This document shows, one piece after another, positions 6,225-37,701 of a stretch of 64,000 nt of DNA (position 1 is the stretch's first letter; each line of letters starts with the position of its first letter). The stretch is from Flavobacterium sp. CBA20B-1. Its GTDB lineage: Bacteria > Bacteroidota > Bacteroidia > Flavobacteriales > Flavobacteriaceae. Where the stretch lies: NCBI RefSeq assembly GCF_028473145.1, contig NZ_CP092370.1:2666001-2730000 (forward strand), given 5' to 3'. The translations under genes and the position numbers were made by a program. The notes under the pieces were generated by a model. It did no database searches. It saw nothing but the letters and a program-made list of their open reading frames with translations, and was not told the DNA's origin.

Positions 6225-6255
6225 AAAATGATAATTTTACTGTAAAAAAAGAGGT

Positions 6256-6651: not shown

Positions 6652-6656
6652 AAAAA

Positions 6657-6676
6657 AGAGAAGCAAGGGCTTCTCT
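6657..6676 (+). terminator. rho-independent terminator of the DUF2059 gene
   Basis: 8-bp stem 6657-6664 with 6669-6676, a 4-base loop and a run of T. Confidence 0.8.
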
Positions 6677-6726
6677 TTTTTGTTGGCTAAAGATCAGAAA
6701 CTTTAAGTTTGTAAAATTTTATTATC

Positions 6727-6763
6727 CACAGATTTTAAGATGAAAAGGATTTTTCAATCTGTG
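6727..6763. repeat. interspersed inverted repeat, CACAGATT type
   Basis: CACAGATT at 6727-6734 is mirrored by AATCTGTG at 6756-6763, followed by a second degenerate half (TTTGTGAAAT). A related pair, CACAGATG / CATCTGTG, flanks 56273-56375. It may be a degenerate copy of an intergenic repeat family. Confidence 0.4.
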
Positions 6764-6806
6764 AAAATTTGTGAAATTCCTAGTTATAGTAAAAATTCTT
6801 GATGGT

Positions 6807-7517
6807 TTATTTTGTAATTCTAGCCAAATAATCAAAATTAGATCCTTCTAAAATCAATTCACATTTTAAGTTTTGTGCCATACAAGCATTTTGCAGCGTA
6901 TTAAAATCTAAATAAAGCCAATTGAAAGGTTCTTCTTTTTTGCCTTTGTATGATATGTTAAATGTAAGCTCGCCATAATAATCACCATACATCGGAATCC
7001 ATTTTCCGCCGTCTTCGTCTTCATCAAACATATAAATGATATCCGAACTGTCTATTAAAAGTTGTCCGTTATCGGTTAATAATTTTTTTAATTTAGAAAG
7101 ATATTGATCGATATTTTTCAATTTACCAAAGATTCCGGTTCCATTCATCAAAAGCAGAATAGTATCAAATTGTTCCGATTCATTCATCTGTAAAATATCC
7201 ATCTGTACAGCATTTTCAACCCCTCGAATTTTACAGGTTTCCACAGCATTTGCAGATATATCAATTGCCAAAACATTGCATCCCTTTTCCTGCAAATACA
7301 GTGCATGGCTTCCGGCACCACAGCCAACATCTAGCACTTTTCCTTTACAAAGCTTTAATGCTTTTTGTTCGATTTTTGGCATATCATTGAATGATCGAAA
7401 AAGATACGAAATATCCATTTCATCGGCTTCGCTGATATTGGTTTCGGTGACTATATTTTCGGGCTGATTATTTTGCACATAATCCAGCATGGCTTTGCCA
7501 AAAAGGTCTTTAAACAT
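6807..7517 (-). CDS. class I SAM-dependent methyltransferase
   Basis: The protein is 236 residues from the chosen start (MFKDLFGKAMLDY). The longer frame adds a Cys-rich stretch unlikely to be translated. Motif I VLDVGCGAGSHALYLQEKG, an acidic end of strand 2 (VLAIDIS) and a post-motif FDTILLLMNGTGIFG define a Rossmann-fold methyltransferase. The substrate cannot be told. It is a single gene convergent with the DUF2059 gene and divergent from the cysteine-cluster gene. Confidence 0.85.
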   Translation of the reverse strand: MFKDLFGKAMLDYVQNNQPENIVTETNISEADEMDISYLFRSFNDMPKIEQKALKLCKGKVLDVGCGAGSHALYLQEKGCNVLAIDISANAVETCKIRGVENAVQMDILQMNESEQFDTILLLMNGTGIFGKLKNIDQYLSKLKKLLTDNGQLLIDSSDIIYMFDEDEDGGKWIPMYGDYYGELTFNISYKGKKEEPFNWLYLDFNTLQNACMAQNLKCELILEGSNFDYLARITK

Positions 7518-7671
7518 ATAATTATTTTTTTTGCAACCACATAATAACATACATTTTCTGATTCTATTTTTGTTGAAAACATAATGAATTATTAAAAAGC
7601 TATGTACTCATTAAGTAAAAGCAATGAAATTCTACGTGGTTAAAAGTTTAAATGTCGGTATTTATTTTTTG

Positions 7672-7679
7672 TAATTTTG
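7672..7679 (+). promoter_or_regulatory. -7 promoter box of the YkgJ-type gene
   Basis: TAATTTTG fits TAnnTTTG, 15 bases before the ATG at 7695. Confidence 0.5.
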
Positions 7680-7694
7680 CATTTTAAAATTGCA

Positions 7695-8189
7695 ATGGAA
7701 AACTATTTAAAACAATTGCCAAAGTTAGCAAAAGATAAGCACACAGAAAACAAGAAGTATTTTGATAAGCTAAAGAAAAAAACACCCAAAGATTTAGATT
7801 ATAAAATGCAGCAAATTCACAATGATGTGTTTAAAAAAACCGATTGTTTGTCGTGTGCGAATTGTTGTAAAACCACCGGTCCTTTGTTTACCATGGCAGA
7901 TATTGAGCGTATTGCAAAACATTTGCGCCAAAAGCCCCAGCAATTTATAGACCAATATTTGCGGATTGATGAGGATAATGATTATGTGTTGCAAAGCGTG
8001 CCTTGTACATTTTTAGACCACGAGAATTACTGCATGATTTATGATGTGCGCCCGAAAGCCTGTAGGGAATTTCCGCATACCGACCGAAAGAAGTTTCAGC
8101 AAATCAGTCATTTAACCTTAAAGAATGTGGCAATTTGTCCCGCAGCGTTTGCTGTTGTTGAAGAAATGAAAAAGAAAATGCCTTTATAA
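7695..8189 (+). CDS. YkgJ family cysteine cluster protein
   Basis: A 164-residue protein with conserved cysteines: CLSCANCCKTTG near residues 48-56, then C-x8-C in TFLDHENYCMIY and CREFPH. This CxxCxxCC...C...C arrangement defines the YkgJ / CxxCxxCC zinc- or iron-binding family, of unknown reaction. The start at 7695 is the first ATG; a TTG six codons earlier overlaps the promoter box. Its stop lies within a terminator stem. Confidence 0.85.
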   Translation: MENYLKQLPKLAKDKHTENKKYFDKLKKKTPKDLDYKMQQIHNDVFKKTDCLSCANCCKTTGPLFTMADIERIAKHLRQKPQQFIDQYLRIDEDNDYVLQSVPCTFLDHENYCMIYDVRPKACREFPHTDRKKFQQISHLTLKNVAICPAAFAVVEEMKKKMPL

Positions 8190-8206
8190 AGCAAAGGCAT
8201 TTTTTT
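8177..8206 (+). terminator. terminator overlapping the stop codon of the YkgJ-type gene
   Basis: 9-bp stem 8177-8185 with 8193-8201 followed by T7. The left arm is the last codons of the gene. The tail overlaps the 3' end of the convergent small gene. Confidence 0.75.
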
Positions 8207-8420
8207 ATATAAAACTGTGTTCGTTGTCTAAATAATTTTTTAGAAAAGCTTGAGCGTCTTCTTCCGAGCTAAAAGTGTCGATTACATATTCTACTAATTT
8301 TAAAATAAATTCTTTAAAACGTTCAAATAAATCAATAACATTCCCCAGAATACGCAAAAACCATTCATAAATAGATTGAAAACGATCAATAATCGCAATT
8401 ACAGCGTTGGTTGTGTCCAT
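8205..8420 (-). CDS. small hypothetical protein, 71 aa
   Basis: The start at 8420 gives MDTTNAVIAIIDRFQSIYEW, preceded by an A/T-rich leader. The protein is a run of amphipathic helix (LGNVIDLFERFKEFILKLVEYVI) with an acidic end (SSEEDAQAFLKNYLDNEH). It has no signal peptide and no known family that I recognise. It sits alone between a convergent gene and namZ. Coding is supported by amino-acid composition and by a neat fit between terminator and leader, but not proved. Confidence 0.5.
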   Translation of the reverse strand: MDTTNAVIAIIDRFQSIYEWFLRILGNVIDLFERFKEFILKLVEYVIDTFSSEEDAQAFLKNYLDNEHSFI

Positions 8421-8500
8421 AACAATTAAATTTTTTTTACTTGAAATCAAATATAGTAAAAGTTTAGCTATTTTTAAACAAGCATATTGATAAATTGAAG

Positions 8501-9739
8501 TTAAAAATTGAAGTAAATCGAATACTTTTTACTTGTTTTTTTAAAATCTTCAATACCGTCTTTCCATGTCTCTCTGATTTCTTTTTCGGTTAAACCTTTT
8601 TCGATTTGTTTTTGAAGTTTATCTGTTCCCGCAAGCTTTATAAAAAAGTTATTAAAGAATTTTTCTTTGTTCGTGGTGTTTTTATAAGCTTTTAAAAGCC
8701 ATTCTAAAGATAAACCATCAATGGCTGCATGAGCTGATAAATCTTCTCCAAAACATTTTACACCGTTATGCACCGGATTTTTTGCACCTTCGTTTGGTTC
8801 GGGTATAAAACTAAAATTCATATTCTTTAAAAAGGGCGATCCGTAAATTTGAAACTGTTTTTCGGTGCCACGCCCCACACTTACATTCGTTCCTTCAAAA
8901 AAGCATAAACTAGTGTATAGATTAATAGCTGTATCATTAGGTAAATTTGGCGATGGTTTTACAGGCAATGAATAGTGCATTCCTTTGTTGTAATTTTTGC
9001 AAGGAATAACAGTTAATTTTGCCTGAACGCCATTCTTCAACCATTTTTCGCCATTAATCATTTTGGCATATTCGCCAATAGTCATTCCGTGCAACACAGG
9101 AATTGGGTGCATGCCTACAAAACTTTTATTTTTCATTTCTAAAACAGGTCCGTCAACCGTTGCACCTTTCGGATTTGGTCGATCCAAAACAATCAACGGA
9201 ATATTATTTTCGGCACAAGCTTCCATTAAATAGTGTAACGACGAAATATAGGTATAAAATCGCGCGCCTACATCCTGCAAATCAAAAATCATTACATCAA
9301 TTCCCGCAAGTTGTTCTTTTGTCGGCTTTTTGTTGGAGCCGTACAAAGAAATAATTGGCAAACCGGTTTTGGTATCTTTTCCGTCTTTAATCAGTTCACC
9401 GGCATCGGCAGTTCCACGAAAACCATGTTCGGGAGCATAGATTTTTTTTAGGTTGATTTTATTTTCGATTAAAAAATCTACTAAATATACTGTTACTTTT
9501 CTAACTGATTTTATACATCCGTTTGAATTACCATACGCATTATAAGGTTCATTTACTTCAACAATTCCCGTTTGGTTCGTTAAAATTCCTACTGTTTTAT
9601 CTTTTAATAACGGAAAATATTGATGAAATTGTTCGGCGCCTGTTTGTATAGATTGCGCATTACCAACAAAACTTAAATTGGCAAAAACTATTACAAAGAA
9701 AAATAAAAATGTATTTTTGGAGTGAATTATATATTTCAT
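8501..9739 (-). CDS. DUF1343 / NamZ-like exo-beta-N-acetylmuramidase, exported
   Basis: A 412-residue protein with a long signal peptide (TFLFFFVIVFANLSFVGNAQ). The DUF1343 domain fills the rest: LKDKTVGILTNQTGIV, IYAPEHGFRG, MIFDLQDVGARFYTYISSL and VLDRPNP. The family includes NamZ, which releases N-acetylmuramic acid from muropeptides, consistent with periplasmic cell-wall recycling. Its start codon is four bases from that of the divergent permease gene. Confidence 0.9.
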   Translation of the reverse strand: MKYIIHSKNTFLFFFVIVFANLSFVGNAQSIQTGAEQFHQYFPLLKDKTVGILTNQTGIVEVNEPYNAYGNSNGCIKSVRKVTVYLVDFLIENKINLKKIYAPEHGFRGTADAGELIKDGKDTKTGLPIISLYGSNKKPTKEQLAGIDVMIFDLQDVGARFYTYISSLHYLMEACAENNIPLIVLDRPNPKGATVDGPVLEMKNKSFVGMHPIPVLHGMTIGEYAKMINGEKWLKNGVQAKLTVIPCKNYNKGMHYSLPVKPSPNLPNDTAINLYTSLCFFEGTNVSVGRGTEKQFQIYGSPFLKNMNFSFIPEPNEGAKNPVHNGVKCFGEDLSAHAAIDGLSLEWLLKAYKNTTNKEKFFNNFFIKLAGTDKLQKQIEKGLTEKEIRETWKDGIEDFKKTSKKYSIYFNF

Positions 9740-9743
9740 AGTT

Positions 9744-10982
9744 TTGAATGTATCTTATTTTATAGCTAAACGTTTAGCAACTTCTAAAAAGTATAAAAAT
9801 AGTGTTTCTGCGCCAATAATAAAAATTGCAATTGCCGCAGTTGCCATTAGTGTGATTATGATGCTGGTTTCGGTGGCAACAGGATTGGGTTTGCAGGAAA
9901 AAATACGCAATAAAATTACATCGTTTAATGGGCATATTGTGGTATCGAATTTTGATAATAACCAGTCCGAAATCACTTTAGAACCGCTTTCTACCCAACA
10001 AAATTTCTATCCAAACTTTACAGAAGTACCCGAAGTGACAGCGGTGCATCCGTTTGCTACCAAAGCAGGAGTAGTTCGAACCGAAAAATCGTTTGAAGGA
10101 ATTGTTTTTAAAGGAGTTGATAAAGATTATCAATGGAACTATTTAGCAGATTATCTCTCAGAAGGAAAGTTGCCAGAATATAAAGCAGAAGGAATGACCA
10201 ACGAAGTGCTTATCTCGGGTTATTTAGCCAATCGACTAGAGTTGAAAGTAGGCGACAAGTTAGAAACCTATTTTTTAAGAAATCAAGAAGCAGAAATGCC
10301 CAATGTGCGTTCGTTTACTATTGTAGGAATTTATGACTCAGGCTTTCCTCAGTTCGATGAAACCTTTGTTATTGGCGATTTAAAACACGTGCAACGCTTA
10401 AATAAATGGCAACAAGACGAGGTGGGTGGTTTTGAACTTTTCATAAACGATTTTACCCAGATTGATGCCGTTGCCGATAAAGTGTATAGTCATATTCCAT
10501 CAACCTTAAACAGTGAGCCAATAAGCACTAAATATTTTCATATTTTTGATTGGCTAAAACTATTCGATTTTAATATCTATATTATTGTAGGGCTGATGAT
10601 TTTGGTAGCAGTTATAAATATGGTAGTTGCTTTATTGGTTTTAATTTTAGAACGCACGCAAATGATTGGTATATTAAAAGCTTTAGGAGCAACCAATTGG
10701 AGTATTCGAAAGATATTTGTGTACAATGCCACTTATATAGTATTGATAGGCTTAGTAATAGGAAACATTATAGGCTTAGGATTGTTGCTGATTCAGAAAT
10801 ATTTTGGTGTGATTACATTAGACCCCACGCAATATTACGTAAAAGAAGCCCCGGTGCAAATTTCACTGTTTTATATCCTTTTAATAAATGTGATTTTAGT
10901 AGTAATTAGTTATATAATCATGTTGTTGCCTTCGGTGCTCATCACAAAAATTTCTCCCGTAAAATCGATTAAGTTTCAGTAG
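9744..10982 (+). CDS. ABC transporter permease, LolE/FtsX family
   Basis: A 412-residue inner-membrane protein. An N-terminal helix (IKIAIAAVAISVIMMLVSVATG) is followed by a large periplasmic MacB-PCD-type domain. Three C-terminal helices from about 275 onward include ILERTQMIGILKALGA, the conserved cytoplasmic loop of FtsX-type permeases. It is likely part of a lipoprotein-release (LolCDE-like) transporter; the ATPase gene is not in the window. The start is a TTG, as no in-frame ATG lies near and MNVSYFIAKRL is the expected N-terminus. Confidence 0.87.
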   Translation: MNVSYFIAKRLATSKKYKNSVSAPIIKIAIAAVAISVIMMLVSVATGLGLQEKIRNKITSFNGHIVVSNFDNNQSEITLEPLSTQQNFYPNFTEVPEVTAVHPFATKAGVVRTEKSFEGIVFKGVDKDYQWNYLADYLSEGKLPEYKAEGMTNEVLISGYLANRLELKVGDKLETYFLRNQEAEMPNVRSFTIVGIYDSGFPQFDETFVIGDLKHVQRLNKWQQDEVGGFELFINDFTQIDAVADKVYSHIPSTLNSEPISTKYFHIFDWLKLFDFNIYIIVGLMILVAVINMVVALLVLILERTQMIGILKALGATNWSIRKIFVYNATYIVLIGLVIGNIIGLGLLLIQKYFGVITLDPTQYYVKEAPVQISLFYILLINVILVVISYIIMLLPSVLITKISPVKSIKFQ

Positions 10983-11151
10983 GGTGAAAATTGATTTTTG
11001 TTAGATGATTTATGAATGTTTAACGCCACGTAAATATTTCATATAAGTGTTTTTATGGGTAATATACGAATTGCTAAAATATTAAATATGTTAATTTTAG
11101 TTTGATTAAGATTTTTTTATGATTTTTTATAAAAAATAAAATGTTTCGATG

Positions 11152-11159
11152 TATCTTGC
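11152..11159 (+). promoter_or_regulatory. putative promoter box upstream of the T9SS repeat protein
   Basis: TATCTTGC inside the 12-mer GATGTATCTTGC (11148-11159). The identical 12-mer precedes icmF at 16679-16690, suggesting a shared -7-type element. Confidence 0.4.
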
Positions 11160-11220
11160 ATAAAATATAGATTAAAAATATTTGTATGCGTTTCACTTTT
11201 AGAAATAAGAAATTTTAAAT

Positions 11221-14200
11221 ATGAAGAAGAAATTATATTTAAGAACAAACAGTTTTTGGGTAGGTTTTCTACTGTTATTTTCAGTTTTAGGTTTTAGCCA
11301 ACCAATTACTGTTAATACTACTACCTATACGCCAGAGCAATTGGTTAAAGATGTTTTAATTAAAACACCTTGTGCCCAAATAACGAATGTCAGCTGGTCA
11401 ACAGGAAGCAGTTTTGCAACCGGTGACCAATCAAATGGTATTGGTTATTTTCAAAATACCAATCCTGCTTTTGATATGGCTGATGGTATTATTTTAAGTA
11501 CAGGTAAAGCGATCGACGGTCCAGGGCCAAGAGGATTAAACGGAGGCTCAAGCAGCGGTACAAGTAATGCGTGGCCTGATGATTTGCAACTTACCACCTA
11601 CATGAATAATATATTAGGTAATACGGATGCGTATCATAATGCCACTATATTAGAGTTTGATTTTGTTCCTTTTACAAGTGAAATGCAATTTAATTTTATT
11701 TTTGCTTCTGAAGAATATGGGACTTTTCAATGTAACTTTTCTGATGCATTTGCATTTTTTTTAACCAATACAGTAGCGGGTACTACAACCAATTTGGCAT
11801 TAGTACCAAATACCACAGATCCTATTTCTGTTGTAACAATTAGAGATGCAGCACATAATGCAAACTGTCCTTCTGTTAATGAACAGTTTTTTGATAGTTA
11901 TAATGACGGAAGTACTACAAGTGCTATAAATTTTAGAGGACAAACCGTTAAGATGACAGCAGAATCGCCAGTTGTACCTTTTACTAAATATCGTATTAAA
12001 ATGGTTATTCAAGACAGAGGAGATTCTGCTCTTGATTCTGCGGTTTTTATCGAAGGAGGAAGTTTCAATATTGGTAATTTAAATTTAGGTAACCCTGTTT
12101 TAATTGAAAATGGCGAAGGTTTATGTGTGGGCGATAGCTACACTTTAAACGCTGGTTTAGACCCTAATTTATTTACTTTTGAGTGGTTTAAAGATGGTGT
12201 GCAAATTCCAGGTCAAACAGGTTCTACTTTAACGGTAACAGAAACGGGAGATTACCATGTGGTTGCATTTGTTCCAAATGTATTATGTGATTTTGTATCC
12301 GATCCCGTTCGAATAGAATTTTTTGATTATGTAACGATATCTGCACCACAGAATATATCATTGTGTCCGAGTTCAGGTTCTTCGACCCGATTTAATTTAG
12401 ACGATGCCTTGACAGGTGTAACGAGCAATCCAGATATATTATTCAGTTATTATTTAACGCAACAAGATGCGGAGAATGATACCAATGCAATTTCTAATTT
12501 TTATAATTTACCGAATAGTACTACCGGTTCATTAACGATTTGGGTTCGTGCATACGAGTTGAATAATCCATGTCCTTATGTAACCTCATTTACAATCAGT
12601 TTACTAAATTGTAGTTTAACGTTAAATCCTTTACCGGACTTATCGATATGTGAGGGAGCGAGCGTACAAACGTTTGATTTAACTGTTCAAACCCCTGTTG
12701 TTTACAACAATGCAGCAGGTTATATAGTAACTTACCACTTAAGCAAACCCGATGCAGATACAGGCATCAATGCGATACCATCGGGAAGTTTAGCAACTTA
12801 TAACGGAACAAACGGTGAACGTATATGGGTTCGCGTTACCGATAGTAACAACTCATTGTCATTTGGAGTAACTTCTTTCTATTTATATAGAAACTTATTG
12901 CCGCTAATCCAAACCACGGTTTTACCAATCACAGCATGTGAAAACGGAAATACAGGTTTAGCAAATTTCGATTTGAATTTAGCTTATAGCACCGTACCTG
13001 TTAGTCCACTAGGTGTGTCTTTAGAGTTTTACAGCACGCAGCAAGATGCATTATTAGGCAACACCGCGTTAATGCTGCCTGTAAATTACACCGGAGCAGC
13101 GGGAACCATTTATGTGCGTGTACGCAATTTGGATGGCGACTGTTTCACGGTAGTTCCTTTGCAGTTACAAATCATCAACACTCCAGTAGCTAACAGCATT
13201 GCACCATTGACATATTGTGATTTAAACAATGATGGATTTGGAGAATTTAACTTAGATGTAACCCGCGTATTAATCGCAGGAAACCCAATGCCGGCTAATT
13301 CGGTAGTTACTTTCCACGAAACCCAAGGAGATGCAGATGCCAATGCAAATGCCATCTTCAATACCGGCGCTTACATTAATAAAGTAAAAGACCAACAAAC
13401 GATTTATGTACGCGTAGGGTTTACCAACTCTAGCTGTTATAACACGGTTCCTTTGGTGTTAATCGTAAACAAAACTCCTGCCATTACCCCAATTAGAGGT
13501 CTTCAGGTTTGTGACATTAATAATGATGGAGTAGAAACAGTAAACCTACGCAGCAAAGAATCAGAAATGTTAACCGGTTTAAACGCTGCCAACTATACAG
13601 TAAGCTACCATATAAGTTCAGCCGCAGCAATGGCAAATACGGGAGCAATAGGCAACCCAACCAATTTTTCAACCAGTGTATCAACAGTAGTTTATGTACG
13701 TGTAACCGATAACACCACAGGTTGTTTCGTAGTAAGTCGCATAAATATTGAATTGGTAGCTATGCCGGTTGTAGCCAACCCGTTACCAACCGTTACAAAA
13801 TGTGATACCAATGGGGATGGTTTTGAAGTGTTTGATTTAGCAAGTTTAAAAGCAGGAATCATCGGCACGCAACAAGGCTTAGATGTAAGTTTCCATTATA
13901 ACAACAGCGATGCGCAAACCGGATTAAATCCATTGGCAAACCAATACCAAAACGTATCTGCCAACGTACAAACCATCTATGTTCGCGTATTTAACGCAAG
14001 TACGGGATGTTTTGTAGTAAGCACTATGAATTTAGAAGTAAAAGCCAACCCTGTTATTACCGTACCAAGTACACCTTATGTAATATGTAGCGATTCAGGT
14101 TTTGGTACCATTAATATTTACTTATACGGAAAAGCATTGATAGATGCTACGGGTCAAAACTACGGATTCCAGTTTTTCGAAACCGAGTCTGATGCCATGA

Positions 14201-16711: not shown

Positions 16712-19700
16712 ATGGAACAAAAAATATATACACCTATAAACAAAGTTCGTATCGTTACAGCTGCTGCTTTGTTTGATGGGCACGATGCAGCAATCAACAT
16801 TATGCGCCGAATTATTCAAGCTACTGGCTGTGAAGTTATTCACTTAGGTCATGATAAATCGGTTGAAGACGTGGTGAACACCGCTATTCAAGAAGATGCA
16901 AATGCCATTGCCATGACATCGTATCAAGGTGGTCACAATGAATATTTTAAGTATATGTATGATTTGCTTCAAGAAAAAGGAGCGGGACATATTAAAATAG
17001 TTGGCGGCGGCGGCGGCGTAATTCTTCCAACCGAAATAAAAGAGTTGATGGATTACGGTATCACGCGTATTTATTCTCCAGACGATGGTCGTGAATTGGG
17101 GTTACAAGGCATGATTAACGATATGGTGCAGAAAGCCGATTTTCCAACAGGTGCTTTAGAAATTCCTGCGGGGAAAGATATTTATCAGTCGTTGAAAGAC
17201 ATGGATATTACTACAATTGCCCGATTAATTTCATTAGCAGAAAACCGTGAAGAAGACTTTTTAAAGGTTTTCGATTTTGATAAAGTTGAAAATAAAAACG
17301 CTCCTGTTTTAGGAATTACCGGAACAGGTGGTGCAGGTAAATCGTCGATGGTTGATGAAATCGTGCGCAGATTTTTGATTGATTTTCCTGAAAAAACCAT
17401 AGCGTTGGTTTCAGTAGATCCATCTAAAAAGAAAACCGGTGGTGCTTTGTTGGGCGACCGTATCCGTATGAATTCTATTAACAACCCTCGTGTTTATATG
17501 CGTTCGTTGGCTACACGTCAATCCAATTTGGCACTTTCAAAATATGTTGAAGAGGCTATTCAGGTTTTAAAAGCAGCACAGTACGATTTGATTATTTTAG
17601 AAACATCGGGGATTGGTCAATCTGATACAGAGATTTTGGATCATTCTGATGCTTCATTGTATATTATGACCCCGGAATTTGGTGCGGCTACACAGTTAGA
17701 AAAAATCGACATGTTGGATTTTGCAGATATCGTAGCCATCAATAAATTCGATAAACGTGGCGCATTAGATGCTTTGCGCGATGTTAAAAAACAATACCAG
17801 CGCAACCATAATTTATGGGATGTAAACCCAGACGAAATGCCGGTTTTTGGAACAATTGCTTCGCAGTTTAACGATCCGGGAACCAATCAACTTTACAAAT
17901 CGATTATTGATAAAGTGGTGGAAAAAACCGGTGCTGATTTAAAATCTACTTTTGAAATTACAAAAGAGATGTCTGAGAAAATCTTTGTGATTCCACCAGC
18001 TCGTATCCGTTATTTGTCTGAAATCGCAGAAAACAACAGAGCGTACGATAACAAAACAGTTTCACAAAAAGAGGTTGCTCAAAAATTATACGGAATCTTT
18101 AAAACCATTGAAACAGTTTCGGGTAAATTACCTATTCTAACACAGCATGGAATTGAAATTTCAGGAACGCAAAATACAGAATTGTCAAAACTTTTATTAG
18201 CCGAATTTGATAAACTAAAACGCGATTTAGATCCATACAATTGGGAAGTAATCACTACGTGGGACGAAAAAGTAAACAAGTATAAAAATCCAGTTTATTC
18301 GTTTAAAGTTCGCGACAAAGAAATCAAAATTCAAACACATTCCGAATCGTTATCGCACTTACAAATTCCTAAAATTGCTTTACCAAAGTACGAAGCTTGG
18401 GGCGATATTTTACGCTGGGTGTTGCAAGAAAATGTACCAGGAGAATTTCCATTTACATCAGGCTTGTATCCGTTTAAGCGAGAAGGCGAAGATCCAACAC
18501 GTATGTTTGCTGGTGAAGGCGGTCCTGAGCGTACCAATCGTCGTTTCCACTATGTATCAAAAGGAATGCCTGCTAAAAGGTTGTCAACCGCTTTTGATTC
18601 GGTAACTTTATACGGAAATGATCCAGGGTATCGACCAGATATTTACGGGAAAATTGGAAATGCAGGTGTATCGATTTGTTGTTTAGACGATGCGAAAAAA
18701 TTATATTCTGGTTTCGATTTATCGCACCCGGCAACATCGGTTTCTATGACCATCAACGGACCAGCGCCCATGTTGTTAGGCTTTTTTATGAATGCGGCAA
18801 TCGATCAAAACTGTGAAAAATACATCAAAGAAAATGGTTTAGAGACAGAAATTGAAGCAAAAATAAAAGCTATTTATGAAGACAATGGTTTGGAAAGACC
18901 AAGATACAATGGCGATTTACCGGAAGGAAACGATGGGTTGGGATTGATGCTATTGGGTGTATCGGGCGATCAGGTTTTACCTGCTGATGTGTATGCCGAA
19001 ATTAAAAAGAACACCTTGGCACAAGTTCGTGGAACGGTTCAGGCTGATATTTTAAAAGAAGATCAAGCACAAAACACTTGTATTTTCTCCACCGAATTTG
19101 CGTTGCGTTTAATGGGCGATGTGCAGGAATATTTCATTGAAAAAAATGTTCGTAATTTTTATTCAGTTTCTATTTCGGGCTATCACATTGCCGAAGCAGG
19201 TGCAAATCCGGTAACACAATTGGCTTTTACATTGGCAAATGGTTTCACTTATGTAGAATATTATTTGTCAAGAGGAATGGATATTAATGCGTTTGGACCA
19301 AACTTATCATTCTTTTTCTCGAATGGTATCGATCCAGAATATTCGGTAATTGGTCGTGTGGCACGTAGAATTTGGGCGAAAGCTTTAAAACAAAAATACG
19401 GAGCCAACGAACGTGCACAAATGTTGAAATACCACATTCAAACATCGGGTAGATCGTTGCACGCACAAGAAATCGACTTTAACGATATTCGTACCACATT
19501 ACAGGCATTGTATGCGATTTACGACAACTGTAACTCGTTGCACACCAATGCATACGACGAAGCAATTACAACTCCGACAGAAGAATCGGTGCGTAGAGCA
19601 ATGGCAATTCAGTTGATTATTAATAAAGAATTAGGATTGGCGAAAAACGAAAACCCGATACAAGGTTCGTTCATTATTGAAGAATTAACTGATCTGGTTG

Positions 19701-20128
19701 AAGAAGCCGTATTGGCAGAATTCGACCGTATTACAGAACGTGGCGGTGTATTAGGTGCAATGGAAACCATGTACCAACGTTCTAAAATTCAAGAAGAATC
19801 ATTGTATTATGAGACGTTGAAACACAATGGCGAGTTCCCAATCATCGGGGTAAATACGTTTTTAAGTTCATCGGGATCTAAAACGGTGATTCCGGCAGAA
19901 GTAATTCGTGCAACCGAAGAAGAAAAACAGTTTCAAATTAAAACTAAAGAAAATCTTCACAAAGCAAAAGCACAAAAAGCAACAGAAGAATTGGCAAGAA
20001 TACAAGAAGTTGCTATACAAAACCAAAATATTTTTGAAGCTTTGATGGATGCTGCCAAAGTATGTTCATTAGGTCAGATAACCGATGCTTTATTTAAAGT
20101 AGGAGGTCAATACCGCAGAAATATGTAA
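16712..20128 (+). CDS. icmF: fused isobutyryl-CoA mutase IcmF (B12 domain, G-protein chaperone, mutase)
   Basis: A 1138-residue, three-part enzyme. An N-terminal cobalamin-binding domain (about 10-145) has [13 protein letters not shown] and GGGGGVI. A MeaB-like GTPase (about 195-420) has Walker [11 protein letters not shown], plus NKFD. The C-terminal mutase barrel (about 560-1138) contains FPFTSGLYP and [20 protein letters not shown]. The order is that of IcmF, which interconverts isobutyryl-CoA and n-butyryl-CoA (some act on pivalyl-CoA) and carries its own repair GTPase. The last 35 codons are duplicated at 21724-21832 as part of the flanking direct repeat. Confidence 0.93.
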
Positions 20129-20140
20129 CCTGAATATAAG

Positions 20141-20168
20141 AAACCCGCTCCAGATTTGAAGCGGGTTT
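20141..20168 (+). terminator. terminator of icmF (left repeat copy)
   Basis: 9-bp GC-rich stem 20141-20149 with 20160-20168 followed by T-rich sequence; duplicated at 21845-21872. Confidence 0.85.
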
Positions 20169-20213
20169 TGTTTATATTGTGCGATTCGTAATCATAGTTA
20201 CATTCAAAAACCG

Positions 20214-20221
20214 TATTTTTG
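20214..20221 (+). promoter_or_regulatory. duplicated ABC-F promoter box, now upstream of the insert genes
   Basis: TATTTTTG fits TAnnTTTG. It is the copy of the native box at 21918. It lies after the icmF terminator and reads toward the two insert genes, so it may drive them. Confidence 0.55.
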
Positions 20222-20239
20222 TGCCTCAAGAAATCAATC

Positions 20240-20281
20240 ATGAATTATCTCTCAGTAGAAAATATATCAAAATTTCTATAA
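20240..20281 (+). pseudogene. 5' fragment of the ABC-F gene (13-codon remnant)
   Basis: An ATG with the first 11 codons of the ABC-F gene (MNYLSVENISK) runs across the repeat boundary into FL and stops with TAA at 20279-20281. If translated it would act as a short upstream ORF for the insert genes. Confidence 0.7.
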
Positions 20282-20365
20282 TTGCAAAGTGTAAAATATT
20301 CAATTTTATATATTGTTTTACTGTAACATTGTGATGCTTTAGTTGAGAAGTTTAATGAAAATACG

Positions 20366-20956
20366 ATGAAGATTGTTTTGTATAAAAAAGTTTTTTTTAC
20401 GACTCTTATTTTAGGATTAATAGGTTTTATCATTATAAGTCACACTAATTTTCTAAACTATGAAAAGCCTTTGACTTTTGATAAATATGAACAGATTACA
20501 TTTAAAAATTTTAGAGGAATTGAATTTTTTAAAAAGACATTATATGGGAATGAGAGATTTGCATATGTTGTAACATCAATTGATTATAAGATTGAAGATA
20601 ATTCGGTAACAATTCAATCTCTTTTTCATCCATCTAGATCTTTTGTTTATAATCAGAATACAAACAGTAAAGAGCTTTTACAGCATGAAAAGTATCATAT
20701 TAAAATTACAGAATTATATGTAAGGAAAGCTAAAGAAAAGATACATAAATTAGATAGATTTGATAAAAGAAAAATAAAACAAATTATCGATCAAGCTGCA
20801 AAGGAAGAAAGAGCATTTCAAAAGGAATATGATTACAATACTTTCCATAGTTATGTTTTAAGTGAACAGAAAAAATATGAAATAATAGTTGATAGTTTAC
20901 TAAATTTATTAACAGAATACAAAAAACCAAAAATTAATTTCCATGAAAGGTATTAA
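20366..20956 (+). CDS. membrane-anchored protein with HExxH motif, DUF922-like (insert gene 1)
   Basis: A 196-residue protein with an N-terminal membrane helix (FFTTLILGLIGFIIIS) and the rest outside the cytoplasm. H107-E-K-Y-H111 (LLQHEKYHIKITELYVR) is an HExxH zinc-protease motif. The later EYDYNTFHSYVLSEQKKYE resembles the YDxxTxHs...Q.xW block of DUF922, a predicted secreted Zn-dependent protease family. The match is from pattern memory and is weak. It overlaps insert gene 2 by 14 bp. It is AT-rich with AT-ending codons, unlike icmF, which suggests horizontal origin. Confidence 0.65.
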   Translation: MKIVLYKKVFFTTLILGLIGFIIISHTNFLNYEKPLTFDKYEQITFKNFRGIEFFKKTLYGNERFAYVVTSIDYKIEDNSVTIQSLFHPSRSFVYNQNTNSKELLQHEKYHIKITELYVRKAKEKIHKLDRFDKRKIKQIIDQAAKEERAFQKEYDYNTFHSYVLSEQKKYEIIVDSLLNLLTEYKKPKINFHERY

Positions 20957-21716
20957 AAATTTAACTCTAGCTTTAGTTATTTTAACTTTTTTGAGTTGTA
21001 ATAAGGAAAATAATGTTTTTCCCACAGATAAGAGATATTGGGATATAAATGATTATAATAAAGTTGTCAGAGAGCTTAATTATGGTTACGAAAAAGATGA
21101 TATGTTACCAACATTCGATGATCCCAATACCAAAATCATAGTTGAGAAACTAACCGATAAGCAAAATTTTAATATCGTACTAGAAGACAATGAATTAGGA
21201 CTTAAACACAGAAATGAAATTGCCGAAAAGTTTTTCAATGAATGGAAAAATATGACTACTATTTATAATGTATTAGATAGAAAAGATCAGTATTTGTATG
21301 AAGATGAAATGCTAGCTGTATGGCATTTTGGTTTAGAACTTCAACTTAAATATTTTAAATTAGGAAATGAGCAAGTAGAGGAAAGTGCAGACGATCCAAA
21401 CGCGCCTAGAGTAAAAAGTAATATAAACTCGAACGTTAACACATTAATAAAAAATTATCTTATTTATCTAGATGAAATTAATAACGAAGATGCGTTTAGT
21501 GAAGCAGGAAAATCAAAATTGGCTCAAGGAATTGATAATTATTTTCCAAAACTTATTAACTTATATCCCGAATCCAATTTTAATGAAATGAAATCTAAAG
21601 CAGAATTACTATCAAAAAAAACAAAATCTGAAAAAATAAAAGTTTCTCTAAATAACATAATTGCACTTATTGATTCAAATTATAAGAAGGATAAAGATGA
21701 AATGCAAAATCATTAA
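20943..21716 (+). CDS. hypothetical lipoprotein (insert gene 2)
   Basis: A 257-residue protein whose N-terminus [20 protein letters not shown] is a lipoprotein signal with the lipidated Cys at 19. The mature part is charged and mainly helical, without a family I recognise. The start overlaps the end of the HExxH gene by 14 bp, so the two are translationally coupled. Whether it partners or inhibits the putative protease is unknown. Its stop lies seven bases before the right repeat. Confidence 0.65.
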
Positions 21717-21723
21717 TATACTC

Positions 21724-21832
21724 AAACCAAAATATTTTTGAAGCTTTGATGGATGCTGCCAAAGTATGTTCATTAGGTCAGATAACCGATGCTTTATTTA
21801 AAGTAGGCGGTCAATACCGCAGAAATATGTAA
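21724..21832 (+). pseudogene. duplicated 3' end of icmF (headless fragment)
   Basis: This stretch repeats the last 36 or so codons of icmF, ending in the same QYRRNM and TAA stop. The only difference is one synonymous base. It has no start, so it is an inert by-product of the duplication, and the lack of decay implies a recent event. Confidence 0.85.
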
Positions 21833-21844
21833 CCTGAATACAAG

Positions 21845-21872
21845 AAACCCGCTCCAGATTTGAAGCGGGTTT
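21845..21872 (+). terminator. duplicated icmF terminator, now closing the insert genes
   Basis: Same hairpin as 20141-20168. In its new place it terminates transcription from the two insert genes before the ABC-F promoter. Confidence 0.8.
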
Positions 21873-21917
21873 TGTTTATATTGTGCGATTAGTAATCATA
21901 GTTACATTCAAAAACCG

Positions 21918-21925
21918 TATTTTTG
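21918..21925 (+). promoter_or_regulatory. -7 promoter box of the ABC-F gene
   Basis: TATTTTTG, fits TAnnTTTG, 18 bases before the ATG at 21944. Confidence 0.55.
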
Positions 21926-21943
21926 TGCCTCAAGAAATCAATC

Positions 21944-23806
21944 ATGAATTATCTCTCAGTAGAAAATATATCAAAATCATTCGGAGCGCGTACGCTTTTT
22001 GAAGGCGTATCGTTTGGTATCAACAAAGACCAAAAAATTGCATTTGTTGCCAAGAACGGAACCGGAAAATCGACCATATTAAACATTATCAATGGATTGG
22101 ATTTTCCTGATACTGGGCAAGTGGTAATCCGTAAAGGAATCCGAATGGAGTTTTTGTCGCAAGACCCTGATTTACAAGACGAATTAACGGTTGAAGAAAG
22201 CATTTTTGCATCAGATAACGAAATTCTTAAAGTTATTGAGCGATACGAAAAGGCATTGGAAAACATGGACGATCAAGAGGAATATCAATTGGCGTTTGAT
22301 CAAATGGATCGGTTCAATGCATGGGATTTTGAAACACAATACAAACAAATTCTCTTTAAATTAAAATTAGAAGATTTAAAGATGAAAGTAAAAAACATGT
22401 CAGGTGGGCAAAAGAAACGCTTGGCATTGGCAATTGTTCTAATCAATAAACCCGATTTACTGATTTTAGACGAGCCCACCAACCATCTGGATTTGGAAAT
22501 GATTGAATGGCTAGAAGATTACTTCGCCAAAGAAAACATTACCTTGTTTATGGTTACCCACGACCGTTTCTTTTTAGAGCGTGTTTGTAATGAAATTATC
22601 GAATTAGACAACGGAAAAATCTATCAATATAAAGGAAATTATTCGTACTATTTACAGAAAAAAGAAGAGCGTATTGCATCTGAAAACGCATCGATCGATA
22701 AAGCCAAAAATCTATTTGTGAAAGAGTTGGATTGGATGCGCCGTCAGCCAAAAGCACGCACCACCAAGTCAAAATCTCGACAAGACGATTTCTACGTTAT
22801 TAAAGAAAAAGCACATTCCCGCCGAAAAGAACATCAGTTGGAATTAGAAATCAATATGGAGCGAATGGGCTCTAAAGTTATTGAAATGCACAATGTTTCT
22901 TTAGCTTTTAACGATAAAATCATACTAAAAAACTTCGATTATCTGTTTAATCGTGGCGAACGCATCGGTATTATTGGTAAAAACGGAACGGGAAAATCTA
23001 CATTTTTAAATATTTTAACCCAAACAATCCAACCCGATTCTGGCAAAGTGGTTATTGGCGATACCATTAAGGTGGGATATTACACACAAAGTGGCATCAA
23101 CCCAAAACCCGAACAAAAAGTTATTGATATTATTAAAGAATACGGCGAGCATATCCCGCTGACTAAGGGAAGAACCATCTCGGCAGGGCAATTGTTAGAA
23201 CGATTTTTGTTTGATAGAAAAAAACAGCACGATTTTGTAGAGAAATTAAGCGGGGGCGAATTAAAACGATTGTATTTATGTACAGTTTTAATTCAAAATC
23301 CTAACTTCTTGATTCTCGATGAGCCTACAAATGATCTGGATATTGTTACCTTAAATGTACTAGAAAACTTTTTGTTAGATTATCCCGGATGTTTATTGGT
23401 AGTGTCACATGACCGCTATTTTATGGATAAAATTGTAGACCACTTATTTGTGTTTAGAGGCGAAGGAGAGATTGAGGATTTCCCCGGCAACTATTCTGAT
23501 TTTAGAATTTACGAAGATTCTGCCGAACCTGTGAAAGACGATGCACCGAAAGAAAAGGTGAATTGGAAAGACAATCAGCCTAAAAAGTCAGGTTTAAGTT
23601 TCAACGAACAAAAAGAATTTTCTAAAATTGAACGAGAAATAAAAGATCTGGAATATCAGAAAAAGCAAATCGAAGAAGGTTTTTCAAATGGAACTGTTTC
23701 CGATGAAGAAATGATTTCAAAAGGCTTGGAATTGCAAAAAATAATTGAAACCTTAGAAGAAAAAGAAGAACGCTGGTTTGAACTTTCTTTAAAAATGGAA
23801 GAATAA
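21944..23806 (+). CDS. ABC-F family ATPase, Uup-like
   Basis: A 620-residue soluble protein with two ATP-binding cassettes and no membrane segment. Walker A sites are GKNGTGKST-type (AKNGTGKST and GKNGTGKST), and signature motifs are MSGGQKKRLALA and LSGGELKRLYLC. An ABC-F linker lies between the cassettes. A C-terminal coiled coil (about 555-620) is like that of Uup. ABC-F proteins act on ribosomes, and Uup also affects DNA precise excision. The start is MNYLSVENIS at 21944; the longer frame would include the promoter. Confidence 0.92.
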   Translation: MNYLSVENISKSFGARTLFEGVSFGINKDQKIAFVAKNGTGKSTILNIINGLDFPDTGQVVIRKGIRMEFLSQDPDLQDELTVEESIFASDNEILKVIERYEKALENMDDQEEYQLAFDQMDRFNAWDFETQYKQILFKLKLEDLKMKVKNMSGGQKKRLALAIVLINKPDLLILDEPTNHLDLEMIEWLEDYFAKENITLFMVTHDRFFLERVCNEIIELDNGKIYQYKGNYSYYLQKKEERIASENASIDKAKNLFVKELDWMRRQPKARTTKSKSRQDDFYVIKEKAHSRRKEHQLELEINMERMGSKVIEMHNVSLAFNDKIILKNFDYLFNRGERIGIIGKNGTGKSTFLNILTQTIQPDSGKVVIGDTIKVGYYTQSGINPKPEQKVIDIIKEYGEHIPLTKGRTISAGQLLERFLFDRKKQHDFVEKLSGGELKRLYLCTVLIQNPNFLILDEPTNDLDIVTLNVLENFLLDYPGCLLVVSHDRYFMDKIVDHLFVFRGEGEIEDFPGNYSDFRIYEDSAEPVKDDAPKEKVNWKDNQPKKSGLSFNEQKEFSKIEREIKDLEYQKKQIEEGFSNGTVSDEEMISKGLELQKIIETLEEKEERWFELSLKMEE

Positions 23807-23834
23807 AAAAAGGAATCTTAAATGATTCCTTTTT
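23807..23834. terminator. bidirectional terminator between ABC-F and NUDIX genes
   Basis: 11-bp perfect stem (23807-23817 with 23824-23834) and a 6-base loop. It overlaps the stop of the convergent NUDIX gene. Confidence 0.85.
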
Positions 23835-24450
23835 CTTTTTCTAAAACAGTTTGGTCATAAACCGTATCATTAAACAACAATTTAATGTTTTGGTACGAAT
23901 TTTTAAGAAGTTCTGGAATATCCTTTTTATCAACCCAAACCACTTTTTCAATGCCTTCTTCAATTTGTCCGTGTAAGTTGCCTTTGTATTTAGTGTTCAT
24001 TAAAAACCAATAGGTTATTTTTAAACGGTATTCACCGTTACGCTTAAAAATGTGAAAAGTTTTTTCTAATCGTTTGTTTATTTTTAAATTTTTGCAACCA
24101 GTTTCTTCTTCCACCTCTCTGATAGAAGTTTGTTCAATAGTTTCATTTTTTTCAATACCACCCTTTGGTAAATCCCATTTGCCGTTGCGAAAAATAAACA
24201 AAACCTGTTTCTTATCATTTTCAACCAAACCGCCACCTGCTTTGTTCACTGTAATTTTATCCTTAAAAAGTTTCATTAACTGTTCTTCGAAAGGATGATA
24301 TAAGTAAGCATTTGTAACTTCACCACTAAAATATTGAGCAATTAACTTTTGCAGGTCAATAGTTTCAAGCAAATAATATTTAAAGTTGCGTTCTTTTTCT
24401 AGCGTACTTGTTAAAAAAAGTGGCTTATCATTAATAAAAACTTTATACAT
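23818..24450 (-). CDS. NUDIX hydrolase
   Basis: A 210-residue protein with a distinct N-terminal region of about 65 residues followed by a NUDIX domain. The NUDIX box is GG-IEKNETIEQTSIREVEEETGC around residues 100-122, with all Glu ligands for Mg present. The family hydrolyses nucleoside diphosphates linked to other groups; the substrate cannot be predicted. The start at 24450 (MYKVFINDKPLFL) lies seven bases from the divergent pyrE ATG. Confidence 0.88.
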   Translation of the reverse strand: MYKVFINDKPLFLTSTLEKERNFKYYLLETIDLQKLIAQYFSGEVTNAYLYHPFEEQLMKLFKDKITVNKAGGGLVENDKKQVLFIFRNGKWDLPKGGIEKNETIEQTSIREVEEETGCKNLKINKRLEKTFHIFKRNGEYRLKITYWFLMNTKYKGNLHGQIEEGIEKVVWVDKKDIPELLKNSYQNIKLLFNDTVYDQTVLEKEKGII

Positions 24451-24453
24451 TTG
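24446..24453 (+). promoter_or_regulatory. -7 promoter box of pyrE, giving a near-leaderless mRNA
   Basis: TACATTTG matches TAnnTTTG and ends four bases before the pyrE ATG. In this phylum transcription starts about five to eight bases downstream of the box, i.e. at or just inside the ATG. The box overlaps the NUDIX start codon on the other strand. Confidence 0.5.
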
Positions 24454-24457
24454 TAAT

Positions 24458-25099
24458 ATGATTTTTAACGACAATACAGCACAGAAAACGGCCGAATTGC
24501 TTTTACAAATAAACGCAATTAAATTAAATCCTAAAAATCCTTTTACATGGGCTTCAGGATGGAAATCGCCAATTTATTGCGATAATCGCATAACTCTTTC
24601 ATTTCCAGAAATTAGAAAATTTTTAAAAAACGAATTTGCTGCAAATATTGTAGATAAATTTGGTAAACCCGACTATATCGCAGGTGTGGCAACCGGTGCC
24701 ATTGGTATTGGTTTGTTGGTTGCCGAAGCCTTAGAATTGCCTTTTATTTATGTTCGCCCAGAAGCTAAAAAGCACGGTCGTCAAAACCAGATCGAAGGTC
24801 AGTTTGAAGCTGGTAAAACCGTAGTTGTGGTAGAAGATTTAATCAGTACCGGAAAAAGCAGTTTGCAAGCAGTTGATGCGTTGCGCGCTGCCGATGCCAA
24901 TATTTTGGGAATGGCTGCTATTTTTACGTATGGATTTGATGTTGCTACAGAAAATTTTAAAAATGCAGACATACAATTGGTAACATTAAGCAATTATCCA
25001 ACGTTGTTAAAAGCGGCGGTAGAAAAAAAATACATCTCGCAAGAAGAAGTTGCTACTTTGAGTGATTGGAGCAAAGACCCTTCTGTTTGGGGAGTTTAA
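24458..25099 (+). CDS. pyrE: orotate phosphoribosyltransferase
   Basis: A 213-residue enzyme making orotidine 5'-phosphate from orotate and PRPP in pyrimidine synthesis. The PRPP-binding loop is TVVVVEDLISTGKSSLQAVD. The catalytic loop region RPEAKKHGRQNQIEG holds the conserved Lys/His. The start at 24458 is preferred to a longer frame running across the divergent gene. A lipid-binding-type SRPBCC gene follows 13 bp later, probably in the same operon. Confidence 0.95.
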   Translation: MIFNDNTAQKTAELLLQINAIKLNPKNPFTWASGWKSPIYCDNRITLSFPEIRKFLKNEFAANIVDKFGKPDYIAGVATGAIGIGLLVAEALELPFIYVRPEAKKHGRQNQIEGQFEAGKTVVVVEDLISTGKSSLQAVDALRAADANILGMAAIFTYGFDVATENFKNADIQLVTLSNYPTLLKAAVEKKYISQEEVATLSDWSKDPSVWGV

Positions 25100-25112
25100 A
25101 AAAATATAAATT

Positions 25113-25505
25113 ATGAATTTAGAAAGTCCGATAGTAACTGTTCAAAAATCATCAGCGTATTTGTTTGATGCTTTAAGCGATATTAAAAATTTCGAAAAGC
25201 TAATGCCCGAAAACATTGCTAAGTTTGAAGTAATAGACGAAAACTGCTTTGAATTTGCACTAAAAGGAATGCCTGAAATTAAATTGGTAAAAAAAAGTGC
25301 TACACCAAATACAGAAGTTGTTTTGGGAGCCGCTAGTAGCAAACTACCTTTTACTTTAATTGCCAAATTAGACGAAAAAGCCACAGAAGAAACCAACGTA
25401 CAGTTGTTTTTTGAGGGCGATTTTAACCCAATGATGGCTATGATGATTAAAGGTCCCATTGGAAAGTTTATTGAAACTTTAGCTGAAAATATGCATAAAC
25501 TTTAA
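25113..25505 (+). CDS. SRPBCC (START/Bet v1-like) family protein
   Basis: A 130-residue cytoplasmic protein with the alpha/beta grip fold pattern: N-terminal VTVQKSSAYLFDALSDIKNFEKLMP, central strands, and a long C-terminal helix after KGPIGKFIETLAENMHKL. Its function is unknown; such proteins bind hydrophobic ligands. It follows pyrE by 13 bp, an arrangement I recall as common in Flavobacteria. Confidence 0.8.
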   Translation: MNLESPIVTVQKSSAYLFDALSDIKNFEKLMPENIAKFEVIDENCFEFALKGMPEIKLVKKSATPNTEVVLGAASSKLPFTLIAKLDEKATEETNVQLFFEGDFNPMMAMMIKGPIGKFIETLAENMHKL

Positions 25506-25560
25506 AAAAAATTAGCAGCATTCACCATTTCGTAAATGCTTATTTCACAATAATAAATCG

Positions 25561-25568
25561 TACTTTTG
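25561..25568 (+). promoter_or_regulatory. -7 promoter box of lpdA
   Basis: TACTTTTG inside the small palindrome GTACTTTTGTAC, 35 bases before the ATG. Confidence 0.5.
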
Positions 25569-25603
25569 TACAACTTTAATTTTTACACTAAAAAATATAA
25601 AAT

Positions 25604-27007
25604 ATGAATTCATTTGACGTAGTTGTAATAGGTTCTGGTCCGGGCGGATATGTTTCAGCAATTCGTTGCGCACAATTAGGAATGAAAACTGCAATCATTG
25701 AAAAATACCCAACTTTAGGAGGTACTTGCTTAAATGTAGGCTGTATTCCTTCTAAAGCCTTGTTGGCATCATCGCACCATGTGGATGAAATGAAACATTT
25801 TGCAGATCACGGTATTGAATTGCCTGGTGACGTTAAAATCGATTTACAAAAAATGATTGCCCGTAAACAAGCAGTTGTTGATCAAACTTGTGGCGGCGTT
25901 AAATTTTTAATGGATAAAAACAGCATCACTGTTTTTGAAGGTGTTGGATCTTTTGAAAATGCAACTACTATAAATGTAACAAAAAATGATGGTTCTGTTG
26001 AGCAAGTTTCTGCTAAAAATACTATTATCGCAACAGGATCTAAACCGTCTTCTTTGCCTTTTATTTCAATCGATAAAGAGCGTATCATTACTTCTACCGA
26101 AGCATTAAAGTTAAAAGAAATTCCTAAACACTTAATCATTATTGGTGGTGGTGTTATTGGGTTAGAATTAGGTCAGGTTTATTTGCGTTTAGGCGCACAG
26201 GTTTCTGTTGTAGAATATGCAGACCGCGTGTTGCCTACTATGGACGGAGCGGTTTCTAAAGAATTGACTAAAGTGTTGAAGAAAGCAGGAATGAAATTCT
26301 ACACTTCGCACAAAGTTCAAAAAGTAGAACGAAACGGCGATGCTGTTTTGGTGGAAGCTTTAAACGCTAAAAACGAAGTAATTTCTTTAGATGGAGATTA
26401 CGCCTTGGTTTGTGTTGGTCGTCGTCCTTACACTGATGGATTGAACGCTGAAAAAGCTGGAGTGAAATTAACCGAAAGAGGTCAGGTTGAAGTAAATGAT
26501 CATTTACAAACAACAGCTTCAAATATTTATGCGATTGGTGATGTGGTTCGTGGTGCCATGTTAGCTCACAAGGCAGAAGAAGAAGGTGTTTTGGTTGCTG
26601 AACAATTAGCAGGTCAAAAACCACATATCGATTACAACTTGATTCCTGGTGTTGTTTACACTTGGCCAGAAGTTGCTGCTGTTGGTAAAACAGAAGAGCA
26701 GTTGAAAGCAGAAAACAAAGAATACAAAGTGGGGCAGTTCCCGTTTAAAGCTTTAGGTCGCGCACGCGCATCTTCTGATTTAGACGGATTTGTTAAGATT
26801 TTAGCAGATAAAACTACCGACGAAATTTTAGGTTTCCATATTGTTGGCGCTCGTGCTGCAGATTTAATTGCAGAAGCAGTGGTTGCAATGGAATACCGTG
26901 CTTCGGCAGAAGATATTTCTCGTATGTCACACGCACACCCAACGTTTGCAGAAGCTATTAAAGAAGCTGCGTTGGCTGCTACAGAAAACAGAGCGTTACA
27001 CGTATAG
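25604..27007 (+). CDS. lpdA: dihydrolipoyl dehydrogenase
   Basis: This 467-residue FAD enzyme is the E3 subunit of 2-oxoacid dehydrogenase and glycine cleavage complexes. It has the FAD-binding GSGPGGYVSAIRCAQLG, the redox-active disulfide GGTCLNVGCIPSK, the NAD-binding GGGVIGLELG and the C-terminal His-Glu pair in HAHPTFAEAIKEAAL. It is a single gene with its own promoter and terminator. Confidence 0.96.
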   Translation: MNSFDVVVIGSGPGGYVSAIRCAQLGMKTAIIEKYPTLGGTCLNVGCIPSKALLASSHHVDEMKHFADHGIELPGDVKIDLQKMIARKQAVVDQTCGGVKFLMDKNSITVFEGVGSFENATTINVTKNDGSVEQVSAKNTIIATGSKPSSLPFISIDKERIITSTEALKLKEIPKHLIIIGGGVIGLELGQVYLRLGAQVSVVEYADRVLPTMDGAVSKELTKVLKKAGMKFYTSHKVQKVERNGDAVLVEALNAKNEVISLDGDYALVCVGRRPYTDGLNAEKAGVKLTERGQVEVNDHLQTTASNIYAIGDVVRGAMLAHKAEEEGVLVAEQLAGQKPHIDYNLIPGVVYTWPEVAAVGKTEEQLKAENKEYKVGQFPFKALGRARASSDLDGFVKILADKTTDEILGFHIVGARAADLIAEAVVAMEYRASAEDISRMSHAHPTFAEAIKEAALAATENRALHV

Positions 27008-37466: not shown

Positions 37467-37495
37467 CAAAGGTTTTCCATTGACCTAAAAACAAT

Positions 37496-37567: not shown

Positions 37568-37597
37568 CAAAGGTTTCCATCGAACCTAAAAAACGAT

Positions 37598-37669: not shown

Positions 37670-37701
37670 CAAAGGTTTCCATCAAACCTAAAAAAAACGA
37701 T

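Follow-up and report, generated by a model that had tools for sequence, protein, structure and literature searches.

Two genes inserted between 254-bp direct repeats of the icmF/ABC-F junction in Flavobacterium sp. CBA20B-1, an arrangement shared with Paenimyroides aestuarii

We analyzed a 64,000-nucleotide stretch of the Flavobacterium sp. CBA20B-1 genome (NZ_CP092370.1, positions 2,666,001 to 2,730,000; G000 in our set), referred to here as the window, in which two genes lie between long direct repeats of a gene junction. Positions are those of the window, and the features of the locus are on the plus strand. On the left is icmF (16712..20128), intact at 1138 aa, which matches NCBIfam NF045497 with 1763 bits (cut-off 1500); this match identifies it as the fused isobutyryl-CoA mutase/GTPase and not the type VI secretion gene sharing that name. 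Its stop codon (20126-20128) is inside the first of two gap-free repeats of 254 nt each (20020-20273 and 21724-21977), which are identical at 251 of 254 positions (98.8%) and differ at repeat positions 85, 118, and 168. With a start-to-start distance of 1704, the repeats enclose 1450 bp of inserted DNA (20274..21723). Repeat comparison showed that copy 1 carries the last 109 nt of icmF, a terminator hairpin, the putative ABC-F promoter, and the first 34 nt of ABC-F. Copy 2 carries an icmF 3′ fragment, the same terminator and promoter, and the genuine ABC-F start, from which an intact 620-aa ABC-F ATPase (open reading frame [ORF] with Pfam/NCBIfam matches) is encoded at 21944..23806. The left edges of both copies fall at one icmF base, and the right edge falls in ABC-F codon 12. 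The original prediction, made from the letters alone, had described this repeat composition, the AT-rich two-gene insert, and the two undamaged neighbors, and our measurements agree with it on each point.

The insert stands out from its surroundings. Its G+C content is 25.1%, or 0.251 against 0.349 for the window, and the two-gene stretch at 20366-21716 is lower in G+C than every one of 418 1350-bp windows along the 64 kb. Apart from the 254-bp pair, the window has no spaced direct repeats (ungapped, at least 60 nt). A second direct-repeat family there consists of four tandem tRNA-Glu(ttc) genes at 37395-37774, spaced about 102 nt apart. We also scanned 864 kb of the genome (about 28%, window included) for repeats of at least 60 bp and at least 85% identity less than 10 kb apart, and found tandem repeats, an integron-like array, and a few other spaced pairs; open frames were listed for 9 other candidate repeat regions, and we claim uniqueness only within the 64-kb window. 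The absence of a transposase, also claimed previously, was confirmed: neither of the two plus-strand ORFs of at least 60 aa in the insert matches a transposase or other recombinase family in Pfam or NCBIfam. There is no integrase gene in the insert, the flanking repeats are 254 bp and not short att repeats, and no inverted pair of at least 14 nt marking both insert ends was found.

The same insertion is present in Paenimyroides aestuarii (G022, one contig), where the insert and both breakpoints match those of CBA20B-1 to the base in a 13-kb alignment. Among 60 genomes searched as relatives (E ≤ 0.01, CBA20B-1 included), these two are the ones that carry cargo gene 2. Assemblers do err at repeats, and the original prediction had raised assembly error as an objection. 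Since an independent one-contig genome shows the identical structure, and its copies have their own differences, we regard an artefact as extremely improbable. An empty site, which had been proposed as a check, was found in G299 (locus L099; one contig, 2.5 Mb), a more distant relative of a separate species: icmF and a terminator are followed by ABC-F after about 130 nt, with the junction in single copy and no cargo in the 16 kb read. Since the breakpoints are shared with P. aestuarii and the icmF/ABC-F site of G299 is empty, the insertion is likely older than the split of the two insert-bearing species. The junction in turn is older than the duplication, because each repeat copy holds the entire junction.

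Insertion with long target duplication was described in Helicobacter pylori by Nobusato, Uchiyama, Ohashi, and Kobayashi in 2000 (Gene 259:99), according to passages of PMC1643837, PMC3031569, PMC3154945, PMC4978471, and PMC2869330. As in those cases, genes here lie between long direct repeats of the target, recognized against a genome with a single copy. The original prediction was correct that the repeat is too long for the target duplication of a transposon, but the same passages show that long target duplications are an already described class in bacteria. Judged by its anatomy, the locus belongs to this class: the target is single-copy in G299, long repeats of the target flank the insert, and the insert holds no transposase or integrase, this last feature being our own reading of the class. 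Restriction-modification cargo, which is frequent but not strictly defining for the class, is not found here. None of the matches of the cargo in Pfam, NCBIfam, or PADLOC is to such a family, and the single weak PADLOC match is that of gene 1 to PDC-M09A (E 0.02). The insertions in these passages are from H. pylori strains and frequently carry restriction-modification genes, whereas the cargo here codes for an HExxH protein and a lipoprotein in Flavobacteriaceae, the event is common to two species, and there are signs of conversion between the repeats. The kind of event is thus known; the cargo type, the host group, and concerted evolution across two species are what this locus adds.

Copies 1 and 2 differ at 3 positions in CBA20B-1 and 5 in P. 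aestuarii, and at 8-12 between the species. Across the four copies there are 14 variable sites, of which 6 are species-specific, 8 are single-copy changes, and none is copy-specific. With breakpoints that point to one event and no copy-specific sites, sequence was probably exchanged between the copies after the split. Probably, gene conversion (RecA-type exchange) between the repeats kept them alike. Repeat position 232 is T in six of seven relatives (G332, G130, G284, G228, G027, and G299) and A in G194; copy 2 of P. aestuarii also has T, while its copy 1 and both CBA20B-1 copies have C. Conversion of copy 2 by copy 1 in CBA20B-1 would explain this pattern, and import into P. aestuarii would explain it too. 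A limited literature search (long target-site duplication, conversion, crossover) returned nothing relevant on conversion between such repeats.

We then considered the age of the cargo. Synonymous divergence (dS) between CBA20B-1 and P. aestuarii is 0.048 and 0.073 for the two cargo genes, against 0.175-0.424 in eight neighbor genes, which suggested a recent swap of the cargo between the species. This idea was dropped, because among 45 comparable genes of the window the cargo is ordinary and its immediate neighbors are the outliers: with the cargo included, the median dS is 0.126 (range, 0.026-0.743), and the cargo genes come 5th and 10th from the bottom. For this comparison, 52 window ORFs were taken and 7 without a counterpart in the P. 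aestuarii DNA compared were left out. The ABC-F sequence used here and in the family comparisons begins at 21941, one codon ahead of its ATG, with an effect on dS that should be negligible. No counterpart in the 78 kb of P. aestuarii compared was found for five ORFs at 798-5086 and two at 62614-63953, and the latter two may fall past the end of that stretch. The low-dS cargo lies between icmF (0.31) and ABC-F (0.36), both raised. On both sides of the cargo, across 16712-27007, icmF, ABC-F, pyrE, SRPBCC, and lpd have dS values of 0.28-0.36, with icmF, ABC-F, pyrE, and lpd at 0.31-0.36; these raised flanks were probably imported by recombination from a more distant relative. By this measure, cargo divergence is ordinary for the region, as expected of an insert as old as the split.

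With moderate confidence, we conclude that the two-gene unit was inserted once, in the common ancestor with P. aestuarii, duplicating 254 bp of the icmF/ABC-F junction and leaving the neighbors whole. The repeats, the identical breakpoints in two species, the insert-free site in a third, and the constrained reading frames are direct observations. As to the mechanism, a chromosome end at codon 12 of ABC-F, arising during replication or repair, may have been linked to, or copied into, incoming DNA that held the two genes, and would then have been rejoined to the sister copy at a point 254 bp upstream that lies within icmF. This would amount to unequal joining or template switching in which the cargo served as filler, and RecA-type gene conversion would afterward have held the copies alike. 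Classical end joining is unlikely, since no Ku gene was matched in either genome, in a search that matched only Bacillus subtilis among 14 control genomes. Both genomes have ComEC, which is weak evidence for competence, since 10 of the 14 controls have it too.

Several points weigh against a single ancestral insertion followed by conversion. The empty site is known from a more distant relative and not from a strain of the same species. icmF and ABC-F are not adjacent in 17 other relatives looked at: they have other neighbors in six (G027, G130, G332, G284, G228, and G194), and in another eleven the 10-14 kb surrounding icmF showed no ABC-F. The icmF and ABC-F trees give G299 different positions, and its adjacency is either ancestral or separately arisen. 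The conversion argument draws on just 14 variable sites, and imports probably reshuffled the region and could explain some of the differences among the repeats, including those at position 232.

The original prediction had named single-crossover (Campbell) integration of a circular DNA, next to capture during transformation, as a fitting route. The circle would have borne the cargo together with a single 254-bp junction copy, and RecA could reverse its entry by releasing a 1704-bp circle. The anatomy of the locus is just as expected after such an event, and Woodhouse et al. favor circles, formed from tandem duplications, for transposed Arabidopsis genes with similar flanking repeats, a eukaryotic case in which some donor sites are known (passages of PMC2869330). 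However, this route needs a prior molecule in which the cargo was already fused to this junction, and among the genus, family, plasmid, phage, and viral matches listed there is none outside the two insert-bearing genomes; cargo gene 2 was not found on plasmids, phages, or viral contigs in the searches made. A circle crossing between the two species also predicts chimeric copies at the species-specific sites, and the copies are not chimeric. We therefore consider integration of a circle unlikely. Two other known processes resemble the locus in part. In homology-facilitated illegitimate recombination, linear DNA joins the chromosome through one homologous and one illegitimate end; unlike here, the opening of the abstract gives no long duplication with cargo (PMC3240628). 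Transformation-driven merodiploids arise as tandem duplications through interchromatid integration, but, in the portion of PMC3784515 consulted, these span about 100-900 kb and the repeats of the first case are incomplete insertion sequence copies.

The cargo proteins look like an envelope pair. Gene 1 (20366..20956) encodes 196 aa with a predicted N-terminal helix that is likely a membrane anchor, an HExxH motif (HEKYH), and a distant relationship to the zincin-like DUF922. Its match to PF06037 has an E value of 1.8e-5 and 25.3 bits, under the Pfam cut-off of 27, and an identical protein (P0121) carries a precomputed PF06037 label. The fold model has a mean pLDDT of 76.5 and places the helix at residues 2-27. 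Gene 2 (20943..21716), which overlaps gene 1 by 14 nt, encodes a 257-aa lipoprotein with an LSC lipobox recognized by eye; its Cys19 is invariant across 43 sequences, and the fold model (mean pLDDT, 90.4) predicts it to be nearly all-helical. Searches of Pfam, NCBIfam, and PADLOC assigned gene 2 to no family. A PDB sequence search gave no match for gene 1 and two for gene 2 at E 0.8-1, and a PDB fold search gave none at E ≤ 0.001 for either model. Pooled over both genes, 15 synonymous and 13 nonsynonymous changes separate CBA20B-1 from P. aestuarii over about 251 and 1108 sites, respectively, from which we conclude that the reading frames are under constraint.

The duplication also appears to have supplied the cargo with expression signals, as the original prediction had proposed. 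A hairpin scan found the terminator-like hairpin of icmF (12 pairs) in copy 1 at 20141..20168; it was scored on the minus strand and, because the stem is palindromic, also stands on the plus strand. Its counterpart in copy 2, at 21845..21872, now lies 3′ of the cargo. TAnnTTTG is a Bacteroidetes promoter consensus, and this motif, likely the -7 element of the ABC-F promoter, occurs in copy 1 at 20214..20221, now 5′ of the cargo, and in copy 2 at 21918..21925, 5′ of ABC-F. It was found upstream of ABC-F in all seven relatives inspected (G299 and six others). A sigma-70 promoter scan found promoter-like sites no commoner than in shuffled sequence. The ABC-F start codons severed by the insert form a 13-codon leader frame, MNYLSVENISKFL, at 20240..20281, and P. 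aestuarii has the same frame. From these elements, we predict that the cargo is transcribed from the duplicated ABC-F promoter and that transcription ends at the duplicated icmF terminator.

Protein searches (E ≤ 0.001) returned 299 and 424 relatives of the two cargo proteins. The best 120 of each, from which the relatives are described, are about 60-80% identical, near-identical Paenimyroides entries aside; among the matches listed, those named by organism are what we take to be Bacteroidota, largely marine Flavobacteriaceae. Gene 2 occurs in 17 of 397 genomes of the family, CBA20B-1 included, and both cargo genes stand side by side at 21 of 22 other oriented loci with gene 2 (the start at L083 was placed at an in-frame non-ATG codon). 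The original prediction had suggested a search for further copies of the pair that are flanked by duplications of other loci. This expectation was not borne out: none of the 15 loci outside cassette arrays has a long duplication of a gene junction, which ties the duplication to one event and not to the cargo. A weak 58-nt match surrounds the pair at L094. More suggestive is L092 (G362, 6961-9296), where the pair is bracketed by four local copies of a terminator-like repeat of about 90 nt, 90-95% alike over 83-96 nt, in tandem on one side with a period of about 215 nt; the best longer matches elsewhere in G362 are about 60 nt at 84%. L092 is what speaks for a different order of events, in which a tandem duplication of the cargo-free icmF/ABC-F junction came first and the pair arrived later, at the seam or through homologous exchange between the repeats. 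Yet a chance insertion exactly at the seam of two 254-bp units is improbable, and an empty tandem was not seen in any genome; we think this order improbable.

At 6 of the 21 loci (L082, L135, L136, L139, L140, and L141), the pair lies within integron-like cassette arrays, with complementary ends recognized by eye. In five stretches from relatives plus our own L192 and L193, we looked ahead of the following site in each of 33 candidate cassettes: 18 have there an exact complement of the 7 bases with which they themselves begin, and 2 have that of the following site. Among 2000 shuffles, the mean count was 1.9 and the highest was 7. Sites for these counts came from hand-made motifs for each array, and some are clearly false. 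At L141 (G442, 2246-12815), a 142-nt repeat occurs eight times, reaching 211 nt in seven of the copies, with one or two genes between neighbors; each copy ends at a conserved AATTGTT beyond which the sequences diverge, and the gene pair is one unit. At L082 of Mesonia algae (573-1820 and 3878-8354), a cassette array holding the pair shares its contig stretch with a 415-aa recombinase that scores 215.8 bits against NF040815 (cut-off, 220). CBA20B-1 has an integron-like array of its own (L192 and L193; G000:C1:1160501-1182000), with genes between repeats of about 160-200 nt ending in CCGTT. The adjoining 377-aa tyrosine recombinase, of the same type as that of L082, reaches 223.2 bits against NF040815, fails TIGR02249, and matches IntI4 (2a3v) in two parts, without IntI4 residues about 205-245. 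An IntI search with TIGR02249 found none above the cut-off in CBA20B-1 or in a set of four genomes. Beside this array are two near-identical copies of about 2 kb (G000:C1:1175281 and 1178128) with reverse-transcriptase-like ORFs, by eye of the group II intron type. For Bacteroidetes, IntegronFinder 2.0 reports a complete integron in Salinibacter as well as In0 elements (passages of PMC9024848), and Bacteroidota are among the integron-bearing phyla (passages of PMC8618304). Flavobacterial arrays of this integron-like kind may have been missed so far.

Since several relatives hold the pair as cassettes with complementary ends and CBA20B-1 has such an array with a recombinase, the pair might have entered the icmF/ABC-F site as a cassette through this recombinase and later lost its attC site. 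A faint GTTGAG/CTCAAAC pairing at the insert ends would fit. However, integron cassettes have an attC and an integrase, unlike this insert, whose rejoined ends show no attC fold in either species on either strand (z, -0.24 to 0.74), with limited power: of two array sites used as controls, L082 gave a clear signal (z, -2.9) and L139 a weak one (z, -1.6). Furthermore, cassette entry would not duplicate 254 bp, and we consider it very unlikely. A bolder idea, to which we give little credence, is that the repeats, as a duplicated terminator-promoter junction, are a working socket that expresses its content and is homogenized by RecA, and that the pair leaves and reenters as a 1704-bp circle or crosses species on its own homology arms. 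The pair would then be a recombinase-free mobile unit, and an integron-like cassette array of flavobacteria would be where its cargo had escaped from.

A single ancestral insertion of the pair, as we favor, extends insertion with long target duplication to cargo other than restriction-modification genes and to Bacteroidota. It suggests that repeats of this kind, homogenized all the while, can persist through a species split rather than quickly popping the insert out. It would also be a simple route by which a gene acquires a promoter and a terminator while its neighbors remain unharmed.

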